NCBI GenBank assembly: GCA_014896535.1 | Contig: JADBKE010000011.1 | Coordinates: 1 to 64,000 of the forward strand | Direction: 5' to 3' | Length of the DNA stretch: 64,000 nucleotides | Origin: Candidatus Fermentithermobacillaceae bacterium | GTDB lineage: Bacteria > Bacillota > Sulfobacillia > Fermentithermobacillales > DUSS01 | In this document: positions 26,861 through 32,261 of the stretch, one piece after another | Layout: every line of letters begins with the position of its first letter | Numbering within the stretch: the stretch's first letter is position 1 | Notes under the pieces: model-generated | Databases searched by the model: none | The model's input: only the letters and a program-made list of their open reading frames with translations | Told to the model about the DNA's origin: nothing | Translations under genes and position numbers: made by a program

Positions 26861-27883
26861 ATGTTTCCCATATTCGGACCGGGAGACGTAGCTATCGATC
26901 TCGGAACGTGTACCGTGCTTGTTTACATAAAAGGCCGCGGCGTGGTGTTGAACGAGCCATCCGTTATCGCAAGAGACCACCATACAGGGGCCGTTCTTGC
27001 AGTAGGCAATGAAGCGCGCAAAATGATCGGTCGCACACCTGGCACCATCGATGCGATTCGACCCCTCAGGGCGGGAGTCATTTCGGACTTCGAAGCTACG
27101 GAGATCATGTTGCGCTACTTCCTGAGAAAGGCCATAGGCGGCAGGATCTACCTGAAGCCCAGGGTGATCATATGCGTTCCCACCGCAGTCACTTCTGTAG
27201 AAAGACGGGCGGTCCTTCAGGCGGGCCTCAGCGCGGGCGCCAGGAAGGTTTACCTGGTTGAAGAGCCTCTCGCCGCTGCCCTGGGAGCCGGACTGGACAT
27301 CAGCGGGGCTTCAGGGTACATGGTCGTGGATGTCGGAGGAGGTACCACCGACATCGCCGTCCTTTCCCTTAACGGCGTCGTCGTCAGCACCTCAACCCGT
27401 ATAGGCGGAGATGCCCTGGACGAGGCCATAGTCAGGTACGTGAAGAAGACTTATCAGCTCGCCATCGGTGAGCCCACGGCTGAACTGGCTCGGATTACGG
27501 CGGGGACCCTTGTGCAAGGTAGCAGGAACGAGCAGTACGAAATCCGCGGAAGAGACCTGGTTACTGGGCTTCCCAGGAGCATCGTCGTAACTTCGGACGA
27601 TCTGGCAAGAGCTATGGAGGAGCCGGCCGCCCTCATCGTCGAAGCCTGCCGGCAGGTCCTGGAGAAGACCCCTCCGGAAATTGCCTCCGACATCGTAGAC
27701 CACGGTATCGTCTTAACGGGCGGAGGAGCGCTTACTCATGGCATGGACATGCTCCTGCAGAAAGGGACCGGATTAAAAGTCTCTGTCGCGGAAGACCCGG
27801 TCACCTGCGTGGTGAGAGGGGCGGGGCTCGTCCTGGAGAATATCCCCAAGTATGAGGAACACATCCGGAGTTTGACGGTGTAG
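26861..27883 (+). CDS. mbl: MreB/Mbl-type cell-shape protein
   Basis: Actin-like filament protein directing lateral wall synthesis, 340 residues. Position after spoIIID and before flgF is that of Bacillus mbl. Nucleotide-binding motifs are visible: IDLGTCTVLVY (about 11-21), MVVDVGGGTTDIAV (about 155) and ITGGGA-like LTGGGALTHG (about 285). The first loop reads G-T-C-T-V where Mbl/MreB normally has G-T-A-N-(V/T), so the conserved Asn is replaced. About 200 nt lie between spoIIID and this gene, with no gene found in it. Confidence 0.95.
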   Translation: MFPIFGPGDVAIDLGTCTVLVYIKGRGVVLNEPSVIARDHHTGAVLAVGNEARKMIGRTPGTIDAIRPLRAGVISDFEATEIMLRYFLRKAIGGRIYLKPRVIICVPTAVTSVERRAVLQAGLSAGARKVYLVEEPLAAALGAGLDISGASGYMVVDVGGGTTDIAVLSLNGVVVSTSTRIGGDALDEAIVRYVKKTYQLAIGEPTAELARITAGTLVQGSRNEQYEIRGRDLVTGLPRSIVVTSDDLARAMEEPAALIVEACRQVLEKTPPEIASDIVDHGIVLTGGGALTHGMDMLLQKGTGLKVSVAEDPVTCVVRGAGLVLENIPKYEEHIRSLTV

Positions 27884-27897
27884 AGCTAAACAATCGG

Positions 27898-27929
27898 CTT
27901 CCCTCTTTCGATAAGGAGTAAGAGGGGGG
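27898..27929 (+). promoter_or_regulatory. hairpin covering the flgF ribosome binding site
   Basis: Bases 27898-27907 can pair with 27920-27929 over ten pairs (two G-U). The 3' arm is AAGAGGGGGG, the Shine-Dalgarno for the ATG at 27938. The 12-nt loop contains AAGGAG, so a GGA is presented in a loop, the arrangement favoured by CsrA. Confidence 0.5.
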
Positions 27930-27937
27930 AACGCTTC

Positions 27938-28678
27938 ATGTTTCGAGGCGTTTTAGCTGGCATCACGGGGATGCGCGCGCAGCTCTTGCGGCAGGACGTT
28001 ATCGCCAATAACCTGGCAAATGCAGCCACACCCGGATACAGGCAGGACACGGTAGCGTTTTCTACTTATCTGGACACATACATGTACAGAGCTGACCAGC
28101 GAGGATTGACTTACCTCGGGAACTTCACTCCCGCCATGGTGCTTTACGAAACCAAGACCATTCACGTGCCAGGACCCATCGAGACCACCGGCAATCCTCT
28201 GGATATAACTTTGTCGCCCGGTGCCTACCTGGCAGTGGAGGCCCCCGGCGGAGTCCGGTACACGAGGAGGGGAGATCTCACCCTTTCGGCCGAAGGCTAC
28301 CTGGAGGTCGGAGGGTACAGAGTCTTAGGGCGCTCAGGGCAGATCAGGATACCTGACCAGGCAGGCCCGGTTCACATCGGTCAAGACGGGACCGTTTTCT
28401 GCGGTGAAGAAGAAGTGGATAAGCTGGCGATAGTTGGTTTTGAGGACGAGTCGATGTTGCGGAAAGAAGGTTCTTGCCTGTTCGCAGCCGACGAAGGAGC
28501 CGCCCGCGAGGCAGAAGCCAGCGTGTTAAGCGGCTGCCTGGAGAAATCCTCGGTGGACGCGGTGATGGAGATGGTTCACCTCGTAGATGCGTTCAGGGCC
28601 TACGAAGCTTCCCAGCGGGCGATTCAGGCGCAGGACGAAGCTACTGCTGCAGCTGTGAACAGAGTTGGAAAGGTTTAA
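27938..28678 (+). CDS. flgF: flagellar rod protein, FlgF type (FlhO)
   Basis: Proximal rod component, 246 residues. The N-terminal flagellar rod motif IANNLANAATPGYRQ (about 24-38) and the C-terminal helix ending DAFRAYEASQRAIQAQDE are intact. It is the first of two rod/hook paralogues (FlhO/FlhP in Bacillus) directly after mbl. flgG follows after 17 nt. Confidence 0.93.
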   Translation: MFRGVLAGITGMRAQLLRQDVIANNLANAATPGYRQDTVAFSTYLDTYMYRADQRGLTYLGNFTPAMVLYETKTIHVPGPIETTGNPLDITLSPGAYLAVEAPGGVRYTRRGDLTLSAEGYLEVGGYRVLGRSGQIRIPDQAGPVHIGQDGTVFCGEEEVDKLAIVGFEDESMLRKEGSCLFAADEGAAREAEASVLSGCLEKSSVDAVMEMVHLVDAFRAYEASQRAIQAQDEATAAAVNRVGKV

Positions 28679-28695
28679 AACAGGAGGCGAAAGCA

Positions 28696-29466
28696 ATGCT
28701 CAGAGCTTTGTGGACCGGTGCAACCGGCATGAATGCCCAACAGTTCATGATCGACACGATCGCTAACAACCTGGCCAACGTGAACACGACCGGGTATAAG
28801 CGGCAGCGGGTTAACTTTAAGGATCTCTACTATCAGGAACTTCGGATGGGTCAGAACGACGTCATTTCGATAGGTCACGGGTCCAGAGTTTCGGATTCCA
28901 CGAGGAGCTTTGCCCCTGGTAACCTGGAGAAGACGGACGACCCGCTTTCTCTGGCCATTGAAGGTCTGGGGTTTTTCTGCGTCGAGCTTCCGGACGGCAC
29001 CGCTTACACCAGGGATGGGAACTTCCGAGTGGACGGTGAAGGGGTGCTGGTCACGTCCGATGGATACCCGGTCGTCTCGGAAGGCGGCTATGGAGGAGAG
29101 ATTACCATCCCTCAGGATGCCACCGAAGTCACGGTCTCGCCCGACGGAACGGTCCTTGCCAGGGTAGGTGACGAGCTCAGGAACGTGGGCCAAATACGAT
29201 TGGCCATGTTTCCAAATCCGGCCGGGCTGGAAGCCATCGGGAGAAACCTTTTCAAGGCCACCGTGGCGTCGGGTGACCCCAGGACCGTTGTTCCGGGGGA
29301 AGAAGGGAGCGGAAGGATTCTGTCGGGCTTCCTTGAGACCTCCAATGTTCAAATAGTCACGGAAATGGTGAACCTGATAGTGGCTCAGCGCGCCTTCGAA
29401 CTTAACTCCAAGGCAGTTGAAACGGCCGACCAGATGCTGGGTATAGCCAATAATCTCAAGCGGTGA
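28696..29466 (+). CDS. flgG: flagellar distal rod protein FlgG
   Basis: Distal rod protein, 256 residues. ATG 28696 has CAGGAGG 9 nt upstream and gives the family start MLRALWTGATGMNAQQ. The rod motif IANNLANVNTTGYKR and the C-terminal LIVAQRAFELNSKAVETADQ are textbook FlgG. The frame is open upstream but only by overlap with flgF. Confidence 0.97.
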   Translation: MLRALWTGATGMNAQQFMIDTIANNLANVNTTGYKRQRVNFKDLYYQELRMGQNDVISIGHGSRVSDSTRSFAPGNLEKTDDPLSLAIEGLGFFCVELPDGTAYTRDGNFRVDGEGVLVTSDGYPVVSEGGYGGEITIPQDATEVTVSPDGTVLARVGDELRNVGQIRLAMFPNPAGLEAIGRNLFKATVASGDPRTVVPGEEGSGRILSGFLETSNVQIVTEMVNLIVAQRAFELNSKAVETADQMLGIANNLKR

Positions 29467-29487
29467 CCGTGGGAGGCGGAACGATAA

Positions 29488-29835
29488 ATGGTGACGGACC
29501 CTTCGAGCCGGCTCCCAGGCGTTGCAGGTGCGCCGGGTAATCTGAGATCTGATGGCGCTCCGCGCAGGCTTCAGGAGGCCTCCAGTGATGCGGCGGCGCA
29601 GAAGAAAGACGACTTTCAGCTCATGAAAGCTTGTCGCGAGTTCGAGGGAATATTCCTTTCGATTCTCTTCAGAGCTATGATGAAGACGACCGGCGCGAAA
29701 GATCAGGGACCGTATGGGACCATTGCGGAACAGGCTTTCGGTCAGAAAATGGCCGAGGCGGGTGGCATAGGACTGGCGAAGGTGTTGTTCAATTCTCTGG
29801 CGAAATCATCTCCCGAGATTCAACGCAGGAGATGA
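29488..29835 (+). CDS. FlgJ-type rod-binding protein (no muramidase domain)
   Basis: A 115-residue protein matching only the rod-binding N-terminal domain of FlgJ. The core is about 47-108, with CREFEGIFLSILFRAMMKTT and the GIGLAKVLFNSLA helix. The first 40 residues are disordered. The muramidase half found in proteobacterial FlgJ is absent, as is usual in Firmicutes. It likely caps or assists rod assembly with FlgF and FlgG. Confidence 0.85.
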   Translation: MVTDPSSRLPGVAGAPGNLRSDGAPRRLQEASSDAAAQKKDDFQLMKACREFEGIFLSILFRAMMKTTGAKDQGPYGTIAEQAFGQKMAEAGGIGLAKVLFNSLAKSSPEIQRRR

Positions 29836-29847
29836 TCGTAACGGGAG

Positions 29848-30354
29848 ATGATCGTAATGGAGGAGAGCTGCCTGCCTGACGGGAGCGGGCCGCCCGACGC
29901 CGACGAAGTTCTCTCTGGCGGACCGGAGTGGATCACCGAAATACTTCCGCACCGGGAGCCGTTTTTGTTTATATCCAGGGTGATTTCGGTTGTCCCGGGG
30001 AAGGAAGCTACGGCCGAGTACGACGTTCCCAAGGACTTTGACGTTTTCCGGGGGCACTTTCCCGGCCACCCCATCATGCCGGGGGTCCTCATCCTCGAGT
30101 TCATGGCCCAAACGGGAGCTTTAGCGCTGTTGTCTCTGCCTCAGTACAGAGGAAAAATAGCTTACCTGGCCGGCATAGACCGAGCGAGATTCAAGCGCCC
30201 GGTGTGGCCCGGCACCACTTTAAGGGCGCGGGTTAAAATAGGTGCGATGCGCAGGGGTATCGGAAGGGGCAGTGCCAGCGCGTTTGTGGGGGAGGACGAA
30301 ATCGCCAGCGCCACAATGGTTTTTGCCGTCGTTCTCGAGGAGGCCGGGGTTTGA
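29848..30354 (+). CDS. fabZ: 3-hydroxyacyl-ACP dehydratase FabZ
   Basis: Hot-dog-fold dehydratase of type II fatty acid synthesis. The catalytic HFPGHPIMPGVL motif with its His, and the Glu in ILEFMAQTGA, are present. It is 168 residues, about 25 longer at the N-terminus than usual. The start region lies in a 15-bp duplication (GGAGATGATCGTAAC / GGAGATGATCGTAAT), so ATG 29848 and ATG 29857 are both possible. Position after the flagellar rod genes matches Bacillus (ywpB). Confidence 0.95.
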   Translation: MIVMEESCLPDGSGPPDADEVLSGGPEWITEILPHREPFLFISRVISVVPGKEATAEYDVPKDFDVFRGHFPGHPIMPGVLILEFMAQTGALALLSLPQYRGKIAYLAGIDRARFKRPVWPGTTLRARVKIGAMRRGIGRGSASAFVGEDEIASATMVFAVVLEEAGV

Positions 30355-30380
30355 CGAGCTTTTGCCATCCGTGCTAAGAT
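30351..30380 (+). promoter_or_regulatory. sigma-A promoter for metK
   Basis: TTGACG (30351-30356, overlapping the fabZ stop), 18-nt spacer, TAAGAT (30375-30380) with an extended -10 TG at 30372-30373. Transcription would begin near 30387, about 28 nt before the riboswitch. Confidence 0.7.
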
Positions 30381-30414
30381 GAAGCGACCCGCAATCCGTA
30401 GGCACATTGTGCCG

Positions 30415-30536
30415 CTCTTATCAAGAGAAGGGTGAGGGAACCGGCCCGATGAACCCTCGGCAACCGGCCCGATGGGCACGGTGCCAAGCCCGGCGGATGA
30501 ATGGTGCGGTGTCGCGCCAAATCCGAAGGATAGGAG
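30415..30536 (+). promoter_or_regulatory. SAM-I (S-box) riboswitch
   Basis: Binds S-adenosylmethionine and controls metK, the gene that makes it. The P1 arms are CTCTTATC (30415-30422) and GATAGGAG (30529-30536). The conserved core reads CAAGAGAAGG, GAGGGA, GGCCCGATGAA, CGGCAACC and GGTGCCAA, in the order of the S-box family. P4 pairs CGGAT (about 30493-30497) with ATCCG (30520-30524). Confidence 0.96.
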
Positions 30537-30540
30537 TTCA

Positions 30541-30597
30541 CTTCCCTTCGGAAACGCACAAGCGCATCGTGAAAGGAACCTCTTCTTCGAAGGGAGG
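30541..30597 (+). promoter_or_regulatory. metK expression platform that hides the ribosome binding site
   Basis: CTTCCCTTCG (30541-30550) pairs with CGAAGGGAGG (30588-30597), ten pairs plus two more inside, burying the GGGAGG Shine-Dalgarno of metK. The same 5' arm can instead pair with TCCGAAGG (30522-30529 with 30545-30552), which belongs to P4/P1 of the riboswitch. These two folds exclude each other. No T tract follows, so the control looks translational. Confidence 0.75.
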
Positions 30598-30606
30598 ACG
30601 ACATCT

Positions 30607-31794
30607 ATGCCCACTATGGGTCCGGGTCGCAGGCTATTTACGTCAGAATCCGTGACGGAAGGACACCCCGACAAGATTGCGGACCAAATCGCTGACGCTG
30701 TCCTAGACGCCATTCTCGAGAAAGACCCCGTTGCCAGAGTCGCGTGTGAATGCCTGGTCAAGACCGGTTTCGTGCTGATCGCTGGCGAGATATCCACCGA
30801 GTGTTATGTGGATATGCCTCAAATCGCCAGATCCAAGATTAAAGAGATCGGTTATACCAGAGCTAAATACGGCTTCGACGGGGATACTTGCGCCGTGCTG
30901 ACCGCCATCGAGGACCAGTCGCCCGACATTGCGCTGGGGGTGGACAGGGCGCTCGAGTCCAAGCAGGGGGAAATGGCGGATACGCTCGGTGCCGGTGACC
31001 AGGGCATGATGTTTGGGTACGCTTGCACCGAGACGGACGTTCTCATGCCTCTGCCCATTTTCCTGGCTCATCAGATGGCCAGAAGGCTGGCTAAAGTAAG
31101 GAAGGAGAAAGTGCTTCCGTACCTCCGTCCCGATGGGAAAACCCAGGTCACCGTGGAGTACGAGGACGGAATACCCAAGCGGATAGACAGCGTGATAGTG
31201 TCTGCGCAGCATGCCGGCGAAGTTCCCCTTGAGATAGTCCGCGCCGACATAGAAAAGCACGTTATCAGGCCGTCGATACCCGAAAACCTTCTGGACGAGA
31301 AGACCAAGTTCTTCGTTAACGCCACCGGCCGGTTCGTCATCGGCGGTCCCCAGGGAGATTCGGGCCTGAGCGGAAGGAAGATCATCGTGGACACCTACGG
31401 CGGATACGCGCGGCACGGTGGAGGTTCTTTCTCGGGGAAGGACCCCACGAAGGTTGACCGGAGCGCAAGTTACGCCGCAAGATACGTCGCCAAAAACATC
31501 GTCGCTGCGGGACTGGCCTCAGAGTGCGAGGTCATGGTTTCCTACGTCATCGGTGTGGCAAGGCCGACCGCGGTCGTAGTAGACACCAAAGGAACGGGCA
31601 AATACCCGGACGAAAAAATCCTCGACGCCGTTCTGGCATGCTTCGACTTCCGCCCGGCCGCCATAATAGAAAGGTTCGACCTGAGGAGACCCATATACTC
31701 CCAGGTGTCGGTGTACGGGCACTTCGGCAGGCCGGACCTGGACCTCCCCTGGGAAAAGACAGACCTTGCCGAGGAAATCCTGAGGAGGTTGTAA
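30607..31794 (+). CDS. metK: S-adenosylmethionine synthetase
   Basis: Makes SAM from methionine and ATP. ATG 30607 has GGGAGG 9 nt upstream; the frame stays open back to 30472, but that part is riboswitch. The 395-residue protein shows the signature motifs [33 protein letters not shown] and [19 protein letters not shown]-like sequence, with the active-site loop between. It lies between fabZ and the comF/flagellar block. Confidence 0.98.
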
Positions 31795-31886
31795 AACAGG
31801 ATACGGTCGACGGCGGAAATAGAGGTGATCCCTTCTCCCCGTTTCACACATATACTGCGTCAGAAGCGGGGAGAGGGGGGACCCAC

Positions 31887-32261
31887 GTGACGTCGGCAGA
31901 ACATCTGGTCCTGATCGCATTAGCTATCGTCGCAGCATACGATGTCCTCATCTCGCTCAGAGCAAGATCGCAGAAAGGTTGGCAGCCCCTAATAGTGGTC
32001 CTTGTTACCAGCAACTCAGCTAACGTAGCCGAAGGAACCGTTCGACGTATCTTATGGGAGGACCTCAAGTCGAGGAGTCAGGGTCTGGAAATCCAGGCAA
32101 TAGACTTGGGTTCGTGCGACGAAACGCCTGAGATTCTGGCTCTCCTTGAACGCGACGAAGTGCTGTCGATGCTGTCGCCGTCCGACCCGTTGGGTGCTGA
32201 CGCCGTCGTCTTAAACCTACAGGACGTAGATGGAGGAGAGGGGAAAAACGTACCTCATTAA
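31887..32261 (+). CDS. small membrane-anchored protein with glycosyltransferase-2-like fold fragment
   Basis: Not a named family I can be sure of. The 124-residue protein has one N-terminal membrane segment (about 6-22) and a short cytoplasmic domain. There, PLIVVLVTSNS and IDLGSCDETPEIL resemble the first nucleotide-binding half of family 2 glycosyltransferases, in which DDGSTDxTP is typical. It is too short to be a full enzyme. The GTG start has GAGAGGGGGG upstream. It lies between metK and a diguanylate cyclase, from which it is separated by 12 nt. Confidence 0.6.
   Translation: MTSAEHLVLIALAIVAAYDVLISLRARSQKGWQPLIVVLVTSNSANVAEGTVRRILWEDLKSRSQGLEIQAIDLGSCDETPEILALLERDEVLSMLSPSDPLGADAVVLNLQDVDGGEGKNVPH

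Follow-up and report, generated by a model that had tools for sequence, protein, structure and literature searches.

The metK leader

The window analyzed here, a 64-kb stretch of DNA taken as a whole, contains metK, which is identified as a methionine adenosyltransferase gene by NCBIfam TIGR01034 at 571 bits and by Pfam. Upstream of it (26861–30354), Pfam identifies an MreB/Mbl gene and a FabA/FabZ-like gene; between them are two ORFs whose products, by reading, resemble flagellar hook/rod proteins. The order resembles the mbl-flhO-flhP-fabZ arrangement of Bacillus. The metK leader carries a SAM-I (S-box) aptamer at positions 30415–30536 of the + strand, within the stretch (30415–30606) where a preliminary description made from the sequence had placed an S-box riboswitch. 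In the Rfam covariance-model search this aptamer matches the SAM-I model RF00162 over its full length (model positions 1–108) with a score of 78.6 bits (gathering score 44.4; E 8.4e-17), and it is the sole Rfam match within the window; SAM-III (SMK box, RF01767) gave no match at threshold there. The position of the aptamer, 70 nt 5′ of a SAM-metabolism gene, fits the S-box class, and the match to RF00162 suggests that the RNA would bind SAM. The features of the leader are as follows.

30351–30380, + strand: likely promoter of metK, TTGACG-N18-TAAGAT, its second hexamer preceded by TG (consensus match)
30415–30422 with 30529–30536, + strand: aptamer helix P1, all pairs standard
30521–30525, + strand: 3′ strand of aptamer helix P4, from the P4 fold
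30522–30529, + strand: anti-sequestor 5′ arm UCCGAAGG, overlapping the P4 and P1 3′ strands; pairs with 30545–30552
30541–30552, + strand: switching arm CUUCCCUUCGGA, comprising the sequestor 5′ arm (30541–30550) and the anti-sequestor 3′ arm (30545–30552)
30579–30597, + strand: weak local hairpin CCUCUU/GGGAGG at the Shine-Dalgarno (SD) sequence, predicted when the anti-sequestor has formed (−5.7 kcal/mol)
30588–30597, + strand: sequestor 3′ arm CGAAGGGAGG, holding the metK SD; pairs with 30541–30550
30592–30597, + strand: metK SD, GGGAGG
30607–31794, + strand: metK, the regulated gene (395 aa; Pfam N, M and C domains; TIGR01034)

The promoter-like site is the only one across 29800–32000, and metK transcription would start near 30387. 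Its −10 region, TGCTAAGAT, and a TTGAC −35 element recur 5′ of metK in several genomes of the same order.

Two helices that compete for one arm

The preliminary description had proposed that the arm following the aptamer covers the metK SD and can alternatively pair with the 3′ side of the aptamer, and both pairings stand, the first at exactly the coordinates proposed. All ten positions of 30541–30550 can pair with 30588–30597 (one pair is G-U; local fold −20.1 kcal/mol), and this sequestor helix covers GGGAGG. Within the same arm, 30545–30552 can form eight of eight Watson-Crick pairs with 30522–30529 (local hairpin −14.7 kcal/mol), so that bases 30545–30550 are used by both helices. To form, the anti-sequestor must borrow bases from the 3′ strand of P4, together with the first base in the 3′ strand of P1, which sets it in competition with the folded aptamer. 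Such antisequestor/sequestor logic has been described before, as have SAM-I riboswitches with the ribosome binding site (RBS) within P1 (PMC2258182); the latter arrangement is ruled out here by the position of the SD, 56 nt past P1.

Complementarity of this quality is rarely matched in randomized sequence. Of 5000 dinucleotide shuffles of the linker, 23 equalled the SD pairing, 87 equalled the pairing with the 3′ side of the aptamer, and 1 equalled both; the corresponding counts for 5000 random 48-mers from the window were 32, 180 and 3. The leader is also kept in both other genomes of the genus (G001 and G002). Across the three congeneric genomes all 34 arm positions are constant, whereas 87 of the 191 four-fold degenerate sites in metK differ (Fisher p 1e-8). 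The linker is conserved as a whole, and 7 of its 48 non-arm positions vary (p 0.04 for arms versus the remaining linker). Since the three genomes are near-identical, covariation cannot show among them, and support for the helices comes instead from conservation: the arms of both switching helices are identical in G001 and G002. Complementarity to the SD in related genomes was a check proposed at the outset, and here the sequestor arms (30541–30550 and 30588–30597) are invariant in both congeners. Judged by sequence, we regard these mutually exclusive predicted pairings as genuine, kept in all three genomes of the genus and unlikely to have arisen by chance.

Folding energies and a predicted co-transcriptional switch

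For the full leader without SAM, ViennaRNA, which models neither the aptamer pseudoknot, the kink-turn nor SAM, gives an equilibrium probability of 0.998 that the SD is paired; with P1 forced, a comparison that the preliminary description had suggested, the value is 0.99. Opening the SD costs 10.1 kcal/mol in the P1/sequestor state versus 4.1 kcal/mol in the anti-sequestor state, where the residual cost is due to the local hairpin 30579–30584:30592–30597 (−5.7 kcal/mol). In transcripts ending at 30556–30572, in which the SD has not yet been made, the anti-sequestor is better than P1 by 0.5–2.2 kcal/mol without SAM, and the two states are about equal in transcripts ending at 30578–30584. The ordering of energies is the same at 50–70 °C, with smaller differences. 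Because the sequestor wins at the calculated equilibrium without SAM, the calculation predicts no simple equilibrium switch; because the finished RNA favors the sequestor with or without SAM, these models suggest that the fold is probably chosen co-transcriptionally.

Such a switch could operate as follows. At low SAM, the growing RNA would form the anti-sequestor (30522–30529:30545–30552) in place of P1/P4, which would occupy the switching arm and allow ribosomes to reach an SD held by the weak local hairpin alone. At high SAM, binding could reverse the 0.5–2.2 kcal/mol lead of the anti-sequestor and tip the early transcript to P1; with P1 locked, the arm would be left free to capture the emerging SD (30541–30550:30588–30597) and turn metK off. 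The original proposal that SAM favors hiding of the RBS is supported by the exclusive, conserved helices and the lack of an intrinsic terminator in the linker, but not in the form of a simple equilibrium switch, given an SD that is 0.998 paired without SAM. The best reading is thus that this S-box riboswitch represses metK translation as a translational OFF switch, to which we assign a probability of roughly 0.8.

Alternative outputs

It is conceivable, if unlikely, that the main output is instead SAM-dependent Rho termination or mRNA decay, in which hiding of the SD leaves early metK mRNA untranslated, Rho or RNases act on it, and transcript length or amount changes. Rho is encoded in the genome (661.8 bits), so SAM could shorten transcripts indirectly, via the translational block, and the authors of the Xanthomonas SAM-I riboswitch study noted a slight effect on transcription and were unable to rule out Rho (PMC7270179). 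However, the SD-sequestering helix is specific and conserved, and a Rho-linked output would operate by way of this translational block and not replace it.

We give still less credence to a sequestor that is effectively constitutive, leaving metK poorly translated at any SAM level and the aptamer adding little. This would account for the near-complete pairing of the SD both without SAM and with P1 forced, and a hairpin around the SD is common, too, in genomes of the order whose metK has no S-box. Yet the genus has kept the aptamer along with both switching helices, early transcripts favor the anti-sequestor, and the folding energies leave out tertiary contacts and the ligand.

Least probable of all is a non-canonical intrinsic terminator, with transcriptional control as in relatives that have terminators at this place. 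Candidates would be, for instance, the stem 30542–30577 followed by CCUCUUCUUC, where our lenient scan pairs CUUCC with GGAAG ahead of a CU-mixed tail (−8.5 to −12.7 kcal/mol), or the sequestor hairpin itself. But the stem is 4–5 bp with a long loop and no U run, one arm-base change weakens it in G002, and the sequestor hairpin is followed by ACGACATC. Applied to controls, the lenient rule calls a terminator in 21 of 103 coding and 41 of 107 shuffled sequences. This weak stem, the only one flagged in the linker by the lenient scan, was accordingly discarded, and the terminator scan of the linker found no intrinsic terminator between the aptamer and metK, which agrees with the non-terminator output claimed in the preliminary description.

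Terminators at related S-boxes

Firmicutes riboswitches act predominantly by transcription attenuation, and attenuation of translation is frequent outside this group (PMC2258182). We surveyed 61 genomes of the class, examining 107 of the 108 S-boxes above the cut-off. The lenient rule finds a terminator-like hairpin at 102 of the 107; because it fires on controls, uncertain S-boxes were also judged by reading. By the other rule, terminators are present at the S-boxes of G046 and G034, and a few of the terminators counted have strong stems with poor U tails (for example, G056:C74 and G027:C209). At metK in G001, the lenient rule picked up the weak stem that G000 and G002 also have. Four S-boxes of the class lack a credible terminator, and all are at metK: those of the three genomes of this genus and that of one further MAG, G045.

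The preliminary description had also held that S-boxes of Firmicutes mostly end in terminators, and for metK this is so. Terminators follow 14 of the 18 S-boxes directly 5′ of metK in the class, as well as all 48 S-boxes found close upstream of metK in named genomes, where the loci considered are the best 80 among the matches listed and not an even sample. The strict terminator rule is passed by 42 of these 48; the other six were accepted by eye, L189 and L156 being the weakest.

Complementarity between linker and SD among the 18 class metK S-boxes is significant only in the three congeners (p about 0.005–0.007, z about −3), and the others have none beyond their composition. In the G045 metK leader (L093), which holds a second metK S-box without a terminator, UCCCCUCC can pair with GGAGGGGG at the SD; because this linker is pyrimidine-rich, the pairing is unremarkable by shuffling (p 0.13).

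The genome under study has one other S-box (C3:3570–3692, − strand), located before an ABC transporter ATPase gene (L001, 746–1438, − strand) and accompanied by a terminator-like hairpin. MetN is the NCBIfam family that this ATPase matches best, with 216 bits, short of the cut-off of 500. A single genome would combine a terminator-like S-box with a predicted translational one at metK, while close relatives have terminators on metK. Nature here supplies a comparison through which to ask how the ligand affinity and timing that an aptamer needs change with its output.

Evolution of metK control

We examined 14 genomes of a sister family within the order. In the leaders that were read, metK again lies downstream of the fabZ-like gene, and several genomes keep the same promoter. 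No S-box was found at metK in these 14 genomes. Leaders that carry the promoter are short, and their SD usually lies in a small hairpin such as CCUCC-UGAA-GGAGG; in several same-order genomes without a metK S-box, a short SD hairpin occupies the place matching 30579–30597. At loci L035–L044, from genomes of the order, the leader 5′ of metK is about 40–70 nt long and usually holds the SD in a small hairpin, which is CCUCC-UGAA-GGAGG in L040, L042 and L044; no riboswitch was matched there by Rfam, at the gathering score or in a lax scan.

Elsewhere in the class, metK is under terminator S-boxes. The simplest history would have this genus turning a terminator platform into one that captures the SD, with loss of the S-box in the sister family; alternatively, the S-box may have been gained in this genus. 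Tentatively, and with more doubt than confidence, we suggest that within one order metK control may have shifted among three forms at a conserved fabZ-metK site, namely a terminator S-box (the form seen in the remainder of the class), an S-box with its terminator arm re-aimed at the SD (this genus) and a short SD-hairpin leader (sister family). The translational S-box of this genus would then be under kinetic control and have arisen on top of an SD hairpin that was already there.

Relation to known SAM riboswitches

To our knowledge, few studies have dealt with SAM-I riboswitches that act on translation. RBS-sequestering S-box platforms that differ from transcriptional ones in ligand binding were reportedly described by Bhagdikar, Grundy and Henkin (2020; J Biol Chem 295:6849). 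In lactic acid bacteria, the SAM-III riboswitch (SMK box) lies 5′ of metK and places the metK SD under translational SAM control, and RF01767 was matched in named Lactobacillaceae loci. SAM-III differs in having another aptamer, with the SD as part of the ligand-binding fold, whereas RF00162 alone is matched in the window.

The Bacillota metK S-boxes of the terminator type (48 named, 14 in the class) share with this leader the same aptamer, the same gene and an arm rich in pyrimidines, such as CCCCUUC, which directly follows P1 and is able to pair with the 3′ side of the aptamer. What differs is the second arm, which builds a U-tailed terminator in those leaders and is the metK SD here.

A translational SAM-I riboswitch has been demonstrated at the met operon of Xanthomonas campestris; this RNA, SAM-IXcc, is reported to act mainly on translation and also binds uncharged initiator tRNA (PMC7270179). 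The metK leader is predicted from its sequence to resemble SAM-IXcc in combining a SAM-I aptamer, the absence of an intrinsic terminator and an anti-SD platform that hides the SD, but differs in that the gene is metK in Bacillota rather than the met operon of a Gram-negative bacterium. RBS-hiding SAM-I riboswitches are thus already described, in Xanthomonas, and the present leader is a well-supported predicted further case, in a group where they are rare.

Two smaller features of the leader deserve mention. The metK frame is open in the 5′ direction into the aptamer, giving an ORF of 440 aa from 30472, and is open upstream in both congeners as well. The open frame across 30472–30606 is probably due to chance at this G+C content, and we rejected the 440-aa extension as a probable translated product; the Pfam domains of the enzyme start downstream of 30607. 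Positions 30401–30413, which lie 3′ of the likely transcription start and 5′ of the aptamer, form a short inverted repeat, GGCACATTGTGCC, whose arms are kept in both congeners with one central change.
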